Shown: positions 13,369 to 24,540 of the stretch, piece by piece
Layout: each line of letters opens with the position of its first letter
Position numbering within the stretch: the first letter of the stretch is position 1
Source of the DNA: a virus
Length of the DNA: 25,239 nt
Virus record (IMG/VR): IMGVR_UViG_3300043119_000522
Coordinates: 1-25,239 of that record
Strand: one strand, 5' to 3'
Notes under the pieces: model-generated
Told to the model about the DNA's origin: nothing
Seen by the model: the letters and a program-made list of their open reading frames with translations, nothing else
Databases searched by the model: none
Made by a program: the position numbers and the translations under genes

Positions 13369-14042
13369 ATTTCAAATATGTTTCCATTACTACTTAAAAA
13401 ACCAAACTTGTTATCAGTAACAACTGATCCATTGCTAAACCAAGTATCATATTTACTTAGTTTTTGCATACCGGCGTTAATAATGTCTTGGTAGTTGTGA
13501 ATGTGACCAAATAAGTGATACTTAGGTTGTACTTCTAATACTCTGTTCAAAAGTGATTTATCACCACACATCTCAAATCTTCTATCTCTGTTGTAAGATT
13601 TATCTAAGATACCTTTTGGTGGTCCGTGAGTAACTAGAATGTCAACGTAATTAGGTATTGCCTGAGGCCAGTATCTGTCTAGTTTAACTCTATCTTTCAT
13701 GAAAGCCCAGTTACCAAAGTTTGGTGTGTATGGATTACCATAAATCAACACTCCTTCTATATCAACTAAATCATCCTCCAAATAAAGAATACCAGCCTCT
13801 GCAAAATCTTTTTTAATAACTAATTTTTTCTCAATAGAGGTATCGTGGTTACCTGCAACATAGATTTTGTTTCTGATAGGTAGTTCTTTGTACCAGTCTA
13901 TAAACTCTCTTACTTCAGGTTCATTGTTGTAAGGATCACGAGAATTGCTACAATCACCTGAGTGTATAACCATGTCAATACCTGAGGGTACGTTTAATAA
14001 ATCGTGATACGTGTGGGTATCACCAATATGCCAAATTTTCAT
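13365..14042 (-). CDS. Calcineurin-like metallophosphoesterase
   Basis: 225 residues. The metal-binding motifs appear in order: WHIGDTHTYHD (D-x-H, about 4-14), IHSGDCSN (GD), YVAGNHDTS (GNHD, about 61-69), VTHGPPKG (GPP, typical of MPPED-type enzymes) and HLFGHIHNYQD (GHxH). It would remove or hydrolyse phosphate esters using two metal ions. In this neighbourhood (HAD and cREC genes upstream, ligase and kinase genes further upstream) a role on RNA ends is plausible, but nucleotide or protein substrates cannot be excluded. Confidence 0.9.
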   Translation of the reverse strand: MKIWHIGDTHTYHDLLNVPSGIDMVIHSGDCSNSRDPYNNEPEVREFIDWYKELPIRNKIYVAGNHDTSIEKKLVIKKDFAEAGILYLEDDLVDIEGVLIYGNPYTPNFGNWAFMKDRVKLDRYWPQAIPNYVDILVTHGPPKGILDKSYNRDRRFEMCGDKSLLNRVLEVQPKYHLFGHIHNYQDIINAGMQKLSKYDTWFSNGSVVTDNKFGFLSSNGNIFEI

Positions 14043-14047
14043 AACTT

Positions 14048-14146
14048 TTATTTTTTCCTGTCATTGTAATTAATTAGGAAATACCACAACCAAATTATTT
14101 TGGGTCTTGCTACTTCGTAGAGTAGAATTAAAAATAGATATAACAT
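14048..14146 (-). CDS. Very small membrane protein
   Basis: 32 residues: hydrophobic MLYLFLILLYEVA, then IIWLWYFLINY and a basic tail NDRKK. The TAA overlaps the A-rich leader of the next gene. It is preceded by promoter-like sequence at 14164-14193, which supports transcription, but no family is recognised. Confidence 0.4.
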   Translation of the reverse strand: MLYLFLILLYEVARPKIIWLWYFLINYNDRKK

Positions 14147-18088: not shown

Positions 18089-19210
18089 TTAGTGAGAATC
18101 TCCTACATCGTTCTTCTCTCCGTAGATCAAATAATCTGGATTGATTACCTTTGCTACTTTCTGTCTTTCACCTGAGATATGTTTGATTACAATTCCTTCA
18201 TGTGGTACTTTTGTTCCTTCAATGAAGTTGTTGAATACCCAGTTATCTTGAATTTGTTGATTCCATTTTCCTTCGTAAAGTACTTCTACGTGAGGAAGTT
18301 CTAATAAACCTTGAGTTATAACTTCAGTTACTTCTGTTGGTAAATATTCTCCATTTATTTTAATATCGAACGCTGCAAACTGAATATCGGTTAAACCATA
18401 CTCGTAGTTCTTTTGAATACCAGCTCCGTAAATCTCTCCATAAAGAATAAGTCCTTCTCCTAAATCAGAACCTTGACGTTTTGCTTCTTGCCAAAGCTTT
18501 GCTTTGATATCATACTTTTCAGCAATTGTTCTCCAAACATCAGTTGAATAGAATCCTTGAGAGTCACTTCCTTTCTCACAGTTATGTGAACCATAAATGT
18601 ATTCATAGTCAATTAAAGCATCAGCAATTCTAAAGAATTTTCTTACTTTATCCCAAAATGACAATTTACTTTTCTTTACAATACCGTATCTAGCATTTGT
18701 ACCGTGAATCTTTCTAGTGATTTGTACTTCATCTTGTTCAGTAAACATTCCTGCTACGTTTTTAAGGTTTGGGAATTTGTAGTAGATGTGGAAGTTTTGA
18801 TTGTCTCTCCATTTGATTTTTCTACCTGAAGCAAGTTGAATTTGTTTAACTGGTGGTTCGTATTTAGAAATTTTTAAAGCCTCCATTAAATCCTTACCTT
18901 CGTAGTTAATTCCAATAGGCAAAAATTGATCTGGGATTATTAAGCATTCAGAATATACTCCTCTTAGTTTTACAGTTCTAACTCTGTTTCCTTTTCTCAG
19001 GTAATTTGCAATTCCAATAGCATCTGCTAGTCCTTGAGGGATAACTGCATCTGTTGTTGCAACTCCTACTAGATCATTTACTTTATGTGATCCTTTTTTT
19101 ACAATACAATTCCATCCACCAATAACTGCTTGTTCGATGTTATCAGCACCTTCGATTGCTTTTACTTCGTTTATTTTTGCTATAAAGCAAACACTATTTT
19201 GATTTTCCAT
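18089..19210 (-). CDS. RNA ligase, DraRnl/Rnl5-like
   Basis: 373 residues, 5'-phosphate/3'-OH polynucleotide ligase. The N-terminal 110 residues form an OB-like domain (AKINEVKAIEGADNIEQAVI) as in Deinococcus-type Rnl. The nucleotidyltransferase domain has motif I KIHGTN (adenylated K167), a YGSHN block, motif IIIa-type GLILYGEIYGAGIQ, motif IV PHEGIVIKH and motif V KVINPDY. It seals RNA breaks through ligase-AMP and RNA-adenylate intermediates. It lies 3 nt after the kinase-like gene, forming a two-gene heal-and-seal unit, closed by a terminator. Confidence 0.9.
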   Translation of the reverse strand: MENQNSVCFIAKINEVKAIEGADNIEQAVIGGWNCIVKKGSHKVNDLVGVATTDAVIPQGLADAIGIANYLRKGNRVRTVKLRGVYSECLIIPDQFLPIGINYEGKDLMEALKISKYEPPVKQIQLASGRKIKWRDNQNFHIYYKFPNLKNVAGMFTEQDEVQITRKIHGTNARYGIVKKSKLSFWDKVRKFFRIADALIDYEYIYGSHNCEKGSDSQGFYSTDVWRTIAEKYDIKAKLWQEAKRQGSDLGEGLILYGEIYGAGIQKNYEYGLTDIQFAAFDIKINGEYLPTEVTEVITQGLLELPHVEVLYEGKWNQQIQDNWVFNNFIEGTKVPHEGIVIKHISGERQKVAKVINPDYLIYGEKNDVGDSH

Positions 19211-19213
19211 TTC

Positions 19214-19615
19214 TTATAATTTTACTTGAAATCTATTTTTCATTTCGATTAATTTTTCTACCGGTACTCCATGTTGATTTTCCCCATCATGTCTATTCTC
19301 TACAATTAAAGAATGAACTCTGTATCCGTATTTTTCTGCTAAATCAAAGTATGGTTGCATTTCCCAAGCCTGAGTGAATGTATTTGATACTATGATCTTT
19401 TCATCAGGATTTATTCCATTCCAATTTGACATTGACTCTTCAACTGCTTGTCTGCACCATTCATGAGCTGCTTTTAAATTTGAAGGATTAAATTCATACT
19501 CACCTTTCTCATTAAGAAAGAAATGATCTGCTTCAAACCATGATCCTCCTATTGAATTTGCTAATGTTGATTTTCCTGCTCCAGGTAACCCTCTTAATAA
19601 AAATAACTCTTTCAT
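19214..19615 (-). CDS. P-loop polynucleotide kinase-like protein
   Basis: 133 residues. LLRGLPGAGKSTLA (about 6-19) is the Walker A loop, EADHFFLNEKGEYEFNPSNL (about 28-47) the substrate Asp region, and IIVSNTFTQAWEMQPYFDLA (about 74-93) the strand and lid region of the T4-Pnk/NEDD4-binding-protein-like kinases. GVPVEKLIEMKNRF resembles the lid helix. It would phosphorylate RNA 5'-OH ends so the ligase 3 nt downstream can seal them. It has its own promoter (19642-19671) and leader AAATAAAAGTTATG. Confidence 0.82.
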   Translation of the reverse strand: MKELFLLRGLPGAGKSTLANSIGGSWFEADHFFLNEKGEYEFNPSNLKAAHEWCRQAVEESMSNWNGINPDEKIIVSNTFTQAWEMQPYFDLAEKYGYRVHSLIVENRHDGENQHGVPVEKLIEMKNRFQVKL

Positions 19616-20327: not shown

Positions 20328-20450
20328 CTAATCGTAAAATGTTATATTACATTGTGAACATGTATGATCATGTCCTGCCCAAGTTATGGCTGTAAGTTTA
20401 TGATACTTTCTATGAAAAAGATAACATATAAGTTTTTTAATACTCTTCAT
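20328..20450 (-). CDS. Very small Cys/His protein
   Basis: 40 residues: MKSIKKLICYLFHRKYHKLT, then a WAGHDHTCSQCNITFYD tail with CSQC plus His, a possible zinc knuckle. It begins 31 nt after a strong promoter and uses the AAATAAAAGTTATG start context. It ends 2 nt before the phosphoesterase ATG. No family recognised. Confidence 0.6.
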   Translation of the reverse strand: MKSIKKLICYLFHRKYHKLTAITWAGHDHTCSQCNITFYD

Positions 20451-20481
20451 AACTTTTATTTTTTAATTGTTTCTTATACCT

Positions 20482-20511
20482 AAATATACGAATAAAAGCC
20501 TGCCGAAGCAA
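20482..20511 (-). promoter_or_regulatory. Promoter (TTG-N20-TATATTT) overlapping a terminator
   Basis: TTG at 20511-20509 sits in the 5' arm of the hairpin at 20496-20515; TATATTT at 20488-20482 follows after 20 nt. Confidence 0.7.
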
Positions 20512-20515
20512 GCTT
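20496..20515 (-). terminator. Intrinsic terminator after the candidate ncRNA
   Basis: 8-bp stem AAGCTTGC/GCAGGCTT with one T-G pair and a TTCG loop, followed by TTATT. It ends the unit carrying the structured RNA. Confidence 0.8.
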
Positions 20516-20542
20516 TTTTGTAATTATTTTTAAAAAAATTGT

Positions 20543-20815
20543 TGCTGGGATGTAAAGCATATAGGCTAAGTCAAATGCAAAATCAAGGTCAAGGACCTTC
20601 CTTACCACAAAGGCAAGGACAAAAACTAAGTCTCAAAGTTGTTAGCCACTTTTAGTCTCTCTTAGGAGTAACATGTCTAACGGTTGAGTTCTATCTCAGT
20701 TTTGAAGTTTGTAAGGAAGCGTGGCTGTCTAAATGGCACGAGGCCATTTTGTGTCATAGAATGATTAAAAGTCATTTTTTATATAGCTATAATTTAAGAC
20801 TCCACTATCCCAGCA
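20543..20815 (-). ncRNA. Candidate structured noncoding RNA with pseudoknot, unknown class
   Basis: No plausible reading frame is present. The 5' and 3' ends pair perfectly over 9 bp (TGCTGGGAT at 20815-20807 with ATCCCAGCA at 20551-20543). Three long-range helices are visible: AGTCTTAAA (20801-20793) with TTTGAGACT (20637-20629), AGCCAC (20726-20721) with GTGGCT (20649-20644), and CTTCCTTAC (20719-20711) with GTAAGGAAG (20605-20597). The third crosses the first two, giving a pseudoknot. Local hairpins include AATGGC/GCCATT and AATGA/TCATT. A terminator lies 27 nt downstream and the upstream gene ends 26 nt before it, so it is probably processed from the unit starting at 22003-22032. I do not recognise a tmRNA, RNase P, 6S or group I intron core. 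Confidence 0.6.
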
Positions 20816-20841
20816 TAAAGCTTTGGAGGATCGGCTTGTGC

Positions 20842-21054
20842 TTACCTCCTTGGCACCAAATTAATATTACCTACATCATACATTTTAAGGATATGTTGTA
20901 CTTTACTCATTGATGTACTCATTCCTTCTTGTTTATCAATTGGCTTATTGTACATATCAACTCCTTCTTCTATAATTGATTCTGCATCAGCACAATCAAA
21001 GCAAAACCCAAATCTTAGATCTAAATCTCTATTACAACATTGACACTGTGCCAT
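20842..21054 (-). CDS. Small zinc-finger protein
   Basis: 70 residues. CQCC near the N-terminus (residues 4-7) and CFDC (about 18-21) form a likely zinc site, followed by an acidic helix and a basic C-terminus (LVPRR). No family recognised. It starts 1 nt after the coiled-coil gene ends. Its last codons lie in a GGAGG/CCTCC inverted repeat (20849-20825) that leads into the candidate ncRNA. Confidence 0.6.
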   Translation of the reverse strand: MAQCQCCNRDLDLRFGFCFDCADAESIIEEGVDMYNKPIDKQEGMSTSMSKVQHILKMYDVGNINLVPRR

Positions 21055-21055
21055 A

Positions 21056-21967
21056 TTATTTTAGTTGATTTAAGAACTCATCTACTACATCCTGGAATCT
21101 TCCTGCTACGTCAATTTTTAAGTTAACAGCTTCTTGAATTTTACCTTGACGTTTTTCTTCAAACTCGTGTTGAGCCTTACGTTGATCTGCAGTCCATTGC
21201 TCATATGCTAATTTATAAGCATTTGCTAGATCTGCATTTTGTTGATTCACTCTTGCTTGAATCTCACCTCTCTCTTTCTGAATTCTAGCATTCTCAGAAG
21301 TGGTAGCATTTTTTACTTTAGATTTAAAGTAATTTACTTTTTGCTCATACCCTCTATGAAGTGCTGCTAACTCTTCATGAATTGCAAGTAATTGCTCAGG
21401 AGTATGGTGGATGGTTACTTTAAGAGGAGTTTTCTTTCCTACTTCAATTTCCATAAACTCTAAAGTCTTAATGGTAGGAAGTTCTGCTCTTAATCGATCT
21501 AGAGTTCCTCTTTTGTGGATGAACTGACCGATATGTGAAGCATAGGCTTCAGCTTCTAAATACTCATTGTATTCGGCTGGGGTTAGTTGATCCCATCCAA
21601 ATTCTTCACTTACTTCTAAAGGAAGGTTCTCTGAAATTGATTGTTGACGGATCGGAGCTTCTACATCGTATATAAAGTGTTCACGTTTGATTTCGTTAAT
21701 CAATTCATCCTTGGCTTTGATGTTCTCCATCAAAAATGCTTGAGTAGCAGATAATCTTGCTTTAGCGGTTAATAACTCCACTACGTTTCCTGGGATTGGG
21801 TTTCCTTTAGTTTCAGTGTAGTTTTCAACTCCAATAGTCAATTCTTTAGACACATTGTTGATGTTGTCTAATTGAGTTGAAATTTCTTTTGCTCTTTGAT
21901 TGCACAAGTTTGAGATTGATTGTGCTTGAGACATTGATAACCCTTTTGATGCTAATAAATTTTTCAT
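21056..21967 (-). CDS. Large helical/coiled-coil hypothetical protein
   Basis: 303 residues, almost entirely helical. It starts MKNLLASKGLSMSQAQSISN, has long heptad-like runs around 65-105 (LLTAKARLSATQAFLMENIK) and 200-285 (RIQKERGEIQARVNQQNADL, then KRQGKIQEAVNLKIDVAGRF), separated by a mixed segment with ELPTIKTLEFMEIEVGKKTP. A scaffold, tail or host-interaction role could be imagined, but there is no supporting motif. First gene after a combined terminator/promoter. Confidence 0.7.
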   Translation of the reverse strand: MKNLLASKGLSMSQAQSISNLCNQRAKEISTQLDNINNVSKELTIGVENYTETKGNPIPGNVVELLTAKARLSATQAFLMENIKAKDELINEIKREHFIYDVEAPIRQQSISENLPLEVSEEFGWDQLTPAEYNEYLEAEAYASHIGQFIHKRGTLDRLRAELPTIKTLEFMEIEVGKKTPLKVTIHHTPEQLLAIHEELAALHRGYEQKVNYFKSKVKNATTSENARIQKERGEIQARVNQQNADLANAYKLAYEQWTADQRKAQHEFEEKRQGKIQEAVNLKIDVAGRFQDVVDEFLNQLK

Positions 21968-22304: not shown

Positions 22305-22349
22305 CTACATTGGAGACGATTGAATTGCTCTCATACTGGATAAATTTAG

Positions 22350-22423
22350 TGGTCCATGTAGGACTCGAACCTACGACCTTCTCGTTATGAGCGAGCTGCT
22401 CTAACCATCTGAGCTAAAGGACC
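22350..22423 (-). tRNA. tRNA with CAT anticodon (Met or Ile2)
   Basis: 74 nt, cloverleaf complete: TAGCTCAGATGGTTAGAGC D-arm, anticodon stem CTCGC-T CATAA-type loop (CTCATAA; anticodon CAT), T-arm GTAGG-TTCGAGT-CCTAC. Acceptor pairs GGTCCTT with ATGGACC (one T-T mismatch). No encoded CCA. It could be elongator Met or Ile decoding AUA after C34 modification; sequence alone does not decide. Confidence 0.9.
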
Positions 22424-22428
22424 ATTAG

Positions 22429-22502
22429 TAGCGAATGGCAGAATCGAACTACCCTTCATCCGGCTTATGAGACCGGTAAGTTCACCAGAACTTTAACTCG
22501 CA
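22429..22502 (-). tRNA. Second tRNA with CAT anticodon, unpaired position 1-72
   Basis: 74 nt: anticodon arm CCGGT-CTCATAA-GCCGG, T-arm GGTAG-TTCGATT-CTGCC, D-arm AGTT/AACT. Acceptor TGCGAGT/ATTCGCT leaves a T1-T72 mismatch, recalling the unpaired end of initiator tRNAs, but the three G-C pairs of the initiator anticodon stem are absent. Probably Met or Ile2. Confidence 0.8.
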
Positions 22503-22505
22503 ATA

Positions 22506-22582
22506 TGGCGGTCCGTACGGGACTCGAACCCGTGATCTCCTACGTGACAGGCAGGCGTCCACTCCAACTGGACTGACAGACC
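22506..22582 (-). tRNA. tRNA-Asp (GTC), CCA encoded
   Basis: Acceptor GGTCTGT/ACGGACC, discriminator G followed by encoded CCA, anticodon arm CCTGC-CTGTCAC-GTAGG (GTC), T-arm CACGGG-TTCGAGT-CCCGT. Among the tRNAs here this is the only one with an encoded CCA. Confidence 0.93.
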
Positions 22583-22746
22583 AAAATTAAAAACAACAAG
22601 TTACACAATTTACTCTACACCAAACTTAACCTTCAAGTAAATCCCTTCGACTAACTACTCGTTCGGTTCTTTCGTTAGCCTCTCTAGTACTCTTTCAAGC
22701 ATTAGGATTAGTAGCCTACCAGTCTTACCTCACTTTATTATTTTTG
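22583..22746 (-). other. tRNA spacer between Cys and Asp
   Basis: 164 nt without a convincing gene. CTAAC/GTTAG can enclose a GAAAGAACCGAACGAGTA loop (about 22650-22680). No complete tRNA is seen. Confidence 0.4.
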
Positions 22747-22818
22747 TGGAGCTATGGAGAATCGAACTCCAATTTATGAATTGCAAATCCATTGTAATAG
22801 CCGTTATACTATAACCCC
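22747..22818 (-). tRNA. tRNA-Cys (GCA)
   Basis: 72 nt: acceptor GGGGTTA/TAGCTCC, D-arm with TAGTATAACGGCTA, anticodon arm ATGGA-TTTGCAA-TTCAT (GCA), T-arm TGGAG-TTCGATT-CTCCA. No encoded CCA. Confidence 0.93.
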
Positions 22819-22823
22819 AATTA

Positions 22824-22947
22824 AATTAAATAAATAAGTCTTCGTCTCTCCTAGCTGGCCCACTTGAAGATTACTCTTCGTGCCCGACTCGAACGGGAAT
22901 GCTAGCGACTCAATCCAGCTTGCCCATAAATGGGTATTTATTTAATT
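22824..22947 (-). ncRNA. Structured tRNA-like spacer element
   Basis: A perfect 13-bp inverted repeat, AATTAAATAAATA with TATTTATTTAATT (22947-22935 and 22836-22824), encloses an inner AGCTGG/CCAGCT stem (22920-22915 and 22858-22853), a clear T-arm CCCG-TTCGAGT-CGGG (22897-22883) and a GAAGA-GTAA-TCTTC hairpin. The strand after the T-arm does not pair with any upstream acceptor, so this is not a normal tRNA. It may be a decayed or rearranged tRNA kept as a spacer. Confidence 0.4.
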
Positions 22948-22950
22948 TTG

Positions 22951-23022
22951 TACTACCGAAGGGAATCGAACCCTCGTTTCAACAGTGAAAGTGTTGTGTC
23001 CTAGCCGTTAGACGACGGTAGC
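22951..23022 (-). tRNA. tRNA-Glu (TTC)
   Basis: 72 nt: acceptor GCTACCG/CGGTAGT (G1-T72 wobble), anticodon arm CAACA-CTTTCAC-TGTTG (TTC), T-arm GAGGG-TTCGATT-CCCTT. D-arm TCGTCTAACGGCTAGGAC is typical of Glu. Confidence 0.94.
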
Positions 23023-23206
23023 AAATTAAAAATAAAACACTGCTGTGGAGCAACACCACAATCCGACTTAAGGTTTTCATCAGGTGGATAGCTAATCCGG
23101 ACTTATTCCCTTCTCACCGCAAAACAGATAATACGTACTCTCTGAATACTCTTGGTGTCGTGATAACAGGTGCTGGTTAACCTATTTTCGTCATGTTGTA
23201 TTTTAG
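23023..23206 (-). other. tRNA spacer between Gly and Glu
   Basis: 184 nt without a recognised gene. A GTGG-TGTTGCT-CCAC hairpin lies near the Glu end. Contains CTGATGA, but no hammerhead core (see rejected items). Confidence 0.4.
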
Positions 23207-23277
23207 AGCAGATAGTCGGGATCGAACCGACATCACCTGGTTGGAAGCCAGAAATAATACCATTATACGATATCTGC
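23207..23277 (-). tRNA. tRNA-Gly (TCC)
   Basis: 71 nt: acceptor GCAGATA/TATCTGC with discriminator T, anticodon arm TCTGG-CTTCCAA-CCAGG (TCC), T-arm GTCGG-TTCGATC-CCGAC. No encoded CCA. Confidence 0.94.
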
Positions 23278-23375
23278 AGTTTGAGGTTGAGAAATCCTCA
23301 GTGTTAGTCTTTACTAGTTGTTGCAACAACCGTGTAGCCACTCTATTTTCCTTTCTCAAGGGAACAACACTTTTG

Positions 23376-23447
23376 AGCCTCTACAAGGAATCGAACCCTG
23401 TTGTCTTGTGTACAAAACAAGTGCATCACCATTTATGCTTTAGAGGC
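23376..23447 (-). tRNA. tRNA-Thr (TGT)
   Basis: 72 nt: acceptor GCCTCTA/TAGAGGC with discriminator T, anticodon arm CTTGT-TTTGTAC-ACAAG (TGT), T-arm CAGGG-TTCGATT-CCTTG. The spacer before the next tRNA holds a palindrome GTTGTTGCAACAAC. Confidence 0.92.
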
Positions 23448-23454
23448 AGATAAA

Positions 23455-23520
23455 TTAGAGTGGGTGTCGGAATCCCTTCTGCAGGTTAGCCCCTGCTACT
23501 TTACTATAAGCTAACTCTAA
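23455..23520 (-). ncRNA. Degenerate tRNA-like element
   Basis: 66 nt. Acceptor-like strands TTAGAGT and ACTCTAA pair perfectly over 7 bp. A D-arm-like GCTT-ATAGTA-AAGT and an anticodon-like GCAGG-GGCTAA-CCTGC arm follow, but the loop has 6 nt, the D-loop lacks GG, and the T-arm region GGGATTCCGACACCC lacks TTCRA. It is either a decaying tRNA or a small tRNA mimic. No anticodon can be assigned. Confidence 0.45.
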
Positions 23521-23887
23521 TTTTTTTATGTAGGCGATCAGTCGCTTGGCGTCCGATCCTTCTGTCCAATTAAGGAACTAATATCCGGTAATCCGATCCT
23601 ACTATATTTTAACACATCCATCAAGATTGGGATAATCGTATAGGCCCAAACCCCTATACTCCATTCAGTCACCTCTCACAATTACTGCGGATGCTTAATG
23701 ATTATCTTACTCAACAAACATAACACTTCTTGATAGTGTTGTAATACTTCTCACTTCTGTGACTCTCTTTTGCATGTCACCTGTGCGTTGAGCTTATTAC
23801 ATCTCTTTATTAGCTTCTTATCCCTCACTCGAAGTATCCAAGCTGTTAGAATAATATTACCTGTTTGTCTTTCTATGTGTTATTTTG
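23521..23887 (-). other. Long noncoding spacer in the tRNA operon
   Basis: 367 nt with no good reading frame or tRNA. Hairpins include GCGA-CTGA-TCGC, GTATAGG-GGTTTGGG-CCTATAC (23659-23638) and AACACT-ATCAAGA-AGTGTT. GGATCGGA occurs twice (about 23540-23600). It is far longer than usual tRNA spacers and may hold an RNA of unknown kind. Confidence 0.4.
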
Positions 23888-23960
23888 TACCCAAGGAGGG
23901 ATTCGAACCCTCAGTATCTAGTTTCTAAGACTAGCGTGTCTACCGTTCCACCACTCGGGC
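23888..23960 (-). tRNA. tRNA-Leu (TAG) with short variable region
   Basis: 73 nt: acceptor GCCCGAG/CTTGGGT, D-arm TGGTGGAACGGTAGACACG typical of Leu, anticodon arm CTAGT-CTTAGAA-ACTAG (TAG), T-arm GAGGG-TTCGAAT-CCCTC. The variable region is only about 5 nt (ATACT) where tRNA-Leu normally has a long arm. First tRNA of the operon, about 10 nt after the expected transcript start. Confidence 0.9.
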
Positions 23961-23978
23961 AATTAATTATTAATACTT

Positions 23979-24008
23979 AAAGATACTAAATTAATTCTAT
24001 GTGAGCAA
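23979..24008 (-). promoter_or_regulatory. tRNA operon promoter (TTG-N20-TATCTTT)
   Basis: TTG at 24008-24006 lies in the final codons of the 105-residue gene (AAA GTT GCT); TATCTTT at 23985-23979 follows after 20 nt and continues AAGTATTAAT as in the promoter at 24331. Confidence 0.65.
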
Positions 24009-24303
24009 CTTTTTTGTCATTTATTTCCCGACTATCCAATATTGCTTTTATAGACTCTAGAACTGTCTCAGCATTAAACTCTCTATCCTCGTAGAGAGTT
24101 ATTTCACTTCTAATAACATTCAGTAACTTCATTGCTTCTATATCTCCAAAACGTTTGTTTAAGTTCTCAGCATGTTCGCAAGCTTCTATATGATCTTTGA
24201 AGTTAGATATAAGATGACCATCTCTATATACTCCCCATCCTAGTGAATAGTTATGGTAGAACTTTTCCCTAACATAGTACTGCCTCTTTGTGTATGCTCT
24301 CAT
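23986..24303 (-). CDS. Hypothetical protein upstream of tRNA operon
   Basis: 105 residues. N-terminal basic strands (KRQYYVREKF), LGWGVYRDGHLISNFKDHIE (about 21-40) reminiscent of small domains that show residues as W-x-V-x-x-D-G repeats, then helices. No firm family. Its last codons carry the -33 box of the tRNA promoter. Confidence 0.6.
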   Translation of the reverse strand: MRAYTKRQYYVREKFYHNYSLGWGVYRDGHLISNFKDHIEACEHAENLNKRFGDIEAMKLLNVIRSEITLYEDREFNAETVLESIKAILDSREINDKKVAHIELI

Positions 24304-24330
24304 CTTTATTTGTCTTAATTAATAATACTT

Positions 24331-24360
24331 AAAGATACGAACTATATTTCTAGTATCCAA
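24331..24360 (-). promoter_or_regulatory. Promoter (TTG-N20-TATCTTT)
   Basis: TTGGATACT at 24360 onward, GTTCG then TATCTTTAAG (24337-24331), spacing 20. Nearly identical to the promoter at 24823-24852. Confidence 0.75.
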
Positions 24361-24367
24361 GCTTTTT

Positions 24368-24454
24368 TTAATCTTTTTTATCTTTTTTATGAATTGTTAT
24401 TCTAACTCCAAAAAACATAAAGAATACAACTACACAAATAAAACCTATTACCAT
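24368..24454 (-). CDS. Very small membrane peptide
   Basis: 28 residues: MVIGFICVVVFFMFFGVRIT then a basic tail IHKKDKKD. One membrane segment, N-out or N-in uncertain. It begins 15 nt after the second tRNA-Cys with an A-rich leader (AAAAAAATAAATTATG). Reading frame is real, expression is a guess. Confidence 0.4.
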   Translation of the reverse strand: MVIGFICVVVFFMFFGVRITIHKKDKKD

Positions 24455-24468
24455 AATTTATTTTTTTG

Positions 24469-24540
24469 AGGTCCTCCAGAGAATCGAACTCTGAATCTCA
24501 CATTTTGCAGACATGAAGCTTAACCATCAGCCTGAGGACC
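24469..24540 (-). tRNA. tRNA-Cys (GCA), second copy
   Basis: 72 nt: acceptor GGTCCTC/GAGGACC, discriminator T, T-arm CAGAG-TTCGATT-CTCTG. Anticodon arm CATGT-CTGCAAA-ATGTG gives GCA but has two G-T pairs, and the D stem is only about 3 bp. Divergent from the other Cys tRNA and separated from the main cluster. Confidence 0.8.

Follow-up and report, generated by a model that had tools for sequence, protein, structure and literature searches.

Among the closest described systems, ROOL is a structured RNA of phages and prophages, often located near tRNA islands, with no known function and no identified protein-binding partner, and GOLLD comprises members that often exceed 800 nt, for which the same source describes no dedicated protein; both ROOL and GOLLD assemble into cages without protein (PMC12286853). 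It is the lack of a known protein partner and function that makes these RNAs puzzling. In addition, OLE, a cellular RNA of the Bacillota of about 600 nt (PMC12054373), is a large structured RNA that works with the dedicated proteins OapA and OapC (PMC12286853, PMC11332333). The HEARO/OMEGA RNAs (with IsrB or TnpB) and TIGR-Tas are also encoded next to a protein of their own.

The locus presented here encodes a structured RNA that occurs in large phages, has not been classified before, and has no Rfam match. As a phage RNA in a tRNA-island setting it resembles both ROOL and GOLLD, the latter also in its ornate fold, but differs from ROOL in its length of about 350 nt, its obligate protein partner, and its secondary structure, and from GOLLD in its size and in the presence of a dedicated gene. 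It shares with OLE, one of whose proteins (OapA) is a membrane protein, the place of a structured RNA beside dedicated protein(s), the partnership here being known from gene linkage, whereas OLE is cellular, longer, and unrelated in sequence, and the partner described below is predicted to be helical with two β-hairpins. Compared to HEARO/OMEGA RNAs and TIGR-Tas, the new RNA has a partner without a matched nuclease domain, and its alignments contain neither a guide segment of variable sequence nor an array of repeats. A literature search covering few subscription papers did not find the RNA, which may have been listed earlier as an unnamed candidate.

The window is a 25,239-nucleotide (25-kb) IMG/VR virus fragment whose identified genes all lie on the minus strand; it is related to Flavobacterium phage immuto, with which it shares 78% DNA identity in one gene. 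Eight predicted tRNA genes (22349-24540, minus) lie upstream of the module formed by the RNA and its partner gene, all on the same strand as the module, and Rfam adds a ninth, weaker tRNA at 22429-22502; an RNA ligase and a small ATPase/polynucleotide-kinase-like gene (18089-19615, minus), possibly involved in tRNA repair, are located near the tRNA array. The first-pass annotation had proposed that the segment 20543-20815 is noncoding and forms a structured RNA, and both statements are borne out: the ORF list of the window displays only short chance ORFs there, and the segment makes up most of a structured noncoding RNA without an Rfam match. Compared with shuffled sequences, the segment folds more stably on both strands (z -2.7 on plus and -4.1 on minus).

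The first homologues were the loci around relatives of the neighbouring phosphoesterase, and the set was extended by two conserved-motif pattern scans and then by profile searches, resulting in 69 distinct RNA homologues (Neff 59 at 90% identity). The weak similarity of loci L077-L080 proved to be chance, and the profile did not recover them. Conservation passes 20815 to about 20869 and reaches its 3' limit near 20536. The complete RNA accordingly occupies 20536..20869 on the minus strand, as defined by (i) the conserved block in the 69 distinct homologues, (ii) covariation, and (iii) G-U/A-C asymmetry, with approximate ends (5' near 20869-20858 and 3' near 20540-20520); the ends first assigned, 20543 and 20815, had missed about 50 nt of the 5' end. 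The strand first assigned was also incorrect. The consensus fold energy is -58.9 kcal/mol for the minus strand versus -40.6 for the plus strand, and the 53 proposed pairs, read on the minus strand, comprise 280 G-U cells versus 64 A-C cells; since the opposite strand would swap these two counts, the RNA is the minus strand, and energy and asymmetry together rule out a plus-strand RNA. The minus strand is also that of the surrounding genes and tRNAs.

The comparison with known RNA classes, which the first-pass annotation had recommended, gave no match to the RNA among 4227 Rfam families in the window, L101, and L146, where the models of RNase P, GOLLD, and ROOL are all unmatched. The absence of a tmRNA agrees with ARAGORN, which finds none in the window, where Rfam gives a sub-threshold mitochondrial tmRNA match elsewhere, at 14032-14109. 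A group I intron had likewise been discounted, in line with the unmatched Rfam group I models and with the position of the RNA after the stop codon of the partner gene at all placeable loci.

The RNA is a conserved structure of the minus strand with a secondary structure supported by compensatory changes. Covariation among the 69 homologues lies far above a tree-based null, in which the same number of substitutions is replayed on the tree without pairing, the summed covariation being 1632 versus 2.4 ± 33 and the canonical cells over the proposed pairs 90% versus 74%. After correction for the set, 27 of the 53 proposed pairs are individually significant, a figure that is not independent because the model, derived from the fold of 13 sequences and refined by viewing covariation in the larger set, was tested on a set that includes those 13. 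The null is heavy-tailed, and this figure refers to proposed pairs, as opposed to the search over all column pairs, in which five pairs reach E < 0.05 and two more fall below 0.3, all seven belonging to the model. Strand asymmetry and the re-pairing of helix P0 provide separate checks.

Overall, P0, P1, and P2 meet in a three-way junction, P3-P5 form inner stems, and a tract of 36 nt displays a six-base periodicity. The terminal helix P0 (20540..20858, minus) joins the two ends of the RNA (for example, AAAACUGGG/CCCAGUUUU): what precedes GGU pairs with what follows AAC. It is short in the window (20858-20857/20540-20541) and extends up to 8-10 pairs in relatives. Alignment pair 37/364 of P0 is 100% canonical (UA 42, AU 18, GU 4, and GC 4), and the outward helix scores 5.25 versus 2.95 ± 0.27 for re-paired arms. 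P1, a hairpin at the 5' end (20820..20854, minus), comprises GGAGG/CCUCC, an internal loop in which UAA faces GAU and which resembles the UAA/GAN motif, and GC[ACAA]GC. Covariation supports P1: the majority of pairs in P1a and P1b are significant, as is one of the two in P1c, and the inner pair alternates between GC (56), AU (8), and UA (4). The terminator postulated after 20815 corresponds to this stem, the G+C-rich hairpin there being P1, and none is called on the plus strand.

P2, the long closing stem (20543..20815, minus), has 9 of its 14 pairs individually significant and consists of P2a (20808-20815/20543-20550) and P2b (20800-20805/20552-20557). P2a is the end helix of the first-pass annotation, described there as nine base pairs (20543-20551/20807-20815); it is indeed perfect in the window, and eight of the nine pairs are 91-99% canonical in the 69 homologues, with compensatory changes. 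Inside P2 are variable hairpins, the long-range stem P3, the near-invariant P4 hairpin, and the arm P5/P6. One variable hairpin, AAAUGGC-CUCGU-GCCAUUU (20731..20749, minus), has one significant pair in the alignments and is replaced in relatives by AAACACC-UUCG-GGUGUUU. P3 (20597..20719, minus; 20713-20719/20597-20602) is 99-100% canonical at five positions, its first five pairs, with UA/CG changes, and confirms the long-range helix 20719/20597 proposed earlier. P4, UGAG[AUAGAA]CUCA (20685..20698, minus), is too conserved in the alignments for a covariation test. P5 (20641..20681, minus; 20673-20681/20641-20649), capped by the variable P6, covaries, and its pairs 20677/20645 and 20680/20642 are among the strongest covarying of all. 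A further helix, P8 (AAAAC/GUUUU), is plausible and falls below significance in the covariation test. The two other long-range helices proposed initially fared differently: 20726/20644 is 9-71% canonical in the homologues, and 20801/20629 has zero compensatory changes, is broken at 20799 in one-third of the homologues, and competes with P2b. With both unsupported, the crossing helix, and thus the pseudoknot, has no support.

Between P3 and P2 lies a tract of constant length, 36 nt, that aligns as six GNYNUN hexads (20561..20596, minus). The first position is G in 81-100% of sequences at every hexad, and the fifth is U in 96-100% in hexads 1-5 and A in the sixth, the other positions being mostly freer; the entropy by itself shows a modest periodicity (period 6, p = 0.035). 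A Watson-Crick partner for the tract was sought in the homologues and not found. One reading frame is stop-free in 53 of 53 distinct sequences; beyond this, peptide coding has no support, synonymous change not exceeding that of shuffled columns and no start codon being conserved.

Directly 3' of the RNA, a hairpin AAAAGCTTGC-TTCG-GCAGGCTTTT (20494..20517, minus) is a likely terminator, recognized by eye and not called by the scan, and in the alignments of many close relatives the RNA is followed by a similar hairpin. The intergenic spacer 20448-20535, comprising a hairpin and a promoter-like sequence, resembles 10-11 places in immuto phage genomes and is likely a repeated terminator-promoter unit; the best blastn matches to cultured phages fall in the intergenic spacer downstream of the RNA.

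The most informative feature of the locus, an obligate partner gene upstream of the RNA, lies outside the coordinates initially annotated. In the window this gene (21056..21967, minus) is co-oriented with the RNA, lies 5' of it, and encodes a protein of about 303 amino acids that represents a new family. From the RNA side, the partner gene is found upstream in 66 of the 69 distinct loci, the other three being cut off without flank; from the protein side, 77 of 80 loci collected by protein search alone carry the RNA, the other three being truncated within the gene. Among the other neighbours none is universal, the next commonest neighbour occurring in 26 loci, a count biased by the initial way of collecting loci. 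Such linkage bears on an assembly of RNA alone, as for ROOL or GOLLD, in which the upstream protein would be kept by position or act separately. The similar setting in phages and tRNA islands, the ornate fold, and the protein-free cages of ROOL and GOLLD (PMC12286853) speak for it, and the earlier analogy with these RNAs stands as far as a large, ornate, tRNA-island-associated RNA outside Rfam is concerned, but falls in its orientation, ends, pseudoknot, and terminator. An RNA-only assembly is nevertheless unlikely: one gene accompanies the RNA here at every locus that allows the test, as against no identified protein partner for ROOL (PMC12286853), and the RNA is much smaller. The consistent place of the RNA behind the partner gene suggests instead that the two probably work together.

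In 53 of the 66 loci the RNA starts 0-11 nt past the stop codon of the partner gene (one overlaps by a base), with nothing between the two, and P0 often takes in that stop codon. This proximity is what a cis-acting 3' element of the partner mRNA would predict, such as a processing or autoregulatory site to which the protein binds. Such an element would, however, be unusual in its size and closed end helix, and in the remaining 13 loci, including the window, the RNA is 74-743 nt away, with intervening genes in the cases examined. In the window a 70-aa gene (20842..21054, minus; ORF list) separates partner and RNA, and its final codons and stop enter P0 and P1. Since both partners are kept at these 13 loci despite the spacing, the pairing does not depend on contact, and its persistence across inserted genes argues for a joint function and not for a cis element, which we consider marginally less probable than an RNA-only assembly.

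The RNA is also frequently located in tRNA arrays. tRNA genes occur in the retrieved flank of 55 of the 69 loci, the nearest at a median of 1.4 kb, in arrays of up to 25 tRNAs (L104), and all 485 of 485 flanking tRNAs lie on the strand of the RNA. The contigs reach 434 kb, indicating that the module is common to phages of very different size.

The partner family has many invariant positions and resembles no described family. In scans of Pfam with the window member and of NCBIfam with 28 members, nothing reaches the cut-off, including any nuclease or Nop domain; a sequence search of the PDB gives no match; and PHROG and PADLOC return only weak, scattered, and inconsistent matches. The protein is found in none of 50,697 cultured phage records, and neither it nor the module occurs in the GTDB bacterial and archaeal genomes scanned. 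The AF2 model (pLDDT 83) displays long helices with two β-hairpins, and structure searches disclose no convincing resemblance to any solved structure (Foldseek best E 0.09; VIA best Z 6.8, over long helices), BFVD yielding one homologue from an uncultured phage. An internal duplication into two helix-hairpin-helix units was considered and is without sequence support. Exactly where the GQFIH motif has its invariant Q, the partner gene of L136 (2796-3713) instead carries an in-frame TAA, either a mutation or a recoded or suppressed stop. In L219 (2674-2751) and L227 (2843-2920), the partner gene is directly preceded by ARAGORN-predicted tRNAs whose anticodon is TTA and which may be ochre suppressors.

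tRNA-rich phages can face anticodon nucleases, and in type III systems the antitoxin consists of tandem repeats that precede the toxin. If the module were a counter-defence pair or one resembling a toxin-antitoxin system, with the RNA neutralising the protein or acting as a decoy for a host nuclease, it would fit the first of these facts together with the RNA ligase and kinase-like gene nearby, but its layout differs from the second. Matches of the partner to defence and toxin families are no better than weak noise, and the module is missing from all GTDB genomes scanned. Obligate RNA-protein pairs are nonetheless known, including type III toxin-antitoxin systems and AbiF with its RNA (PMC12373285), yet this is the least probable of the explanations considered.

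The reading we prefer, with somewhat better than even confidence, is that a trans-acting RNA and the 303-aa protein form a ribonucleoprotein (RNP) serving phage translation or tRNA handling. The RNA, phage-encoded, of about 330-350 nt and transcribed from the minus strand, would be the last part of a transcription unit comprising tRNAs, partner protein, and RNA, and would probably be cut out of the transcript like the tRNAs, with P0 holding its ends together. It would most likely assemble with the upstream-encoded protein, and the resulting RNP may act in translation or tRNA handling during infection. The location in tRNA arrays offers circumstantial support for such a role, and the mild acidity of the partner (pI about 5.5-6.5), unlike many RNA-binding proteins, calls for caution. 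More speculatively, and with the balance of probability against it, the module may represent a new class of viral RNP machine in which the hexad tract docks several copies of the protein or, less likely, encodes a short peptide.

What distinguishes the locus is a separate RNA class, with strong covariation, accompanied by one dedicated gene, which makes its function directly testable. It also shows that large phages may carry, next to their tRNA arrays, RNA-protein modules that escape standard annotation altogether because neither half matches any family. If the proposed reading is true, this would be a viral RNP machine in which RNA and protein are both without known relatives, encoded together with a set of tRNAs.
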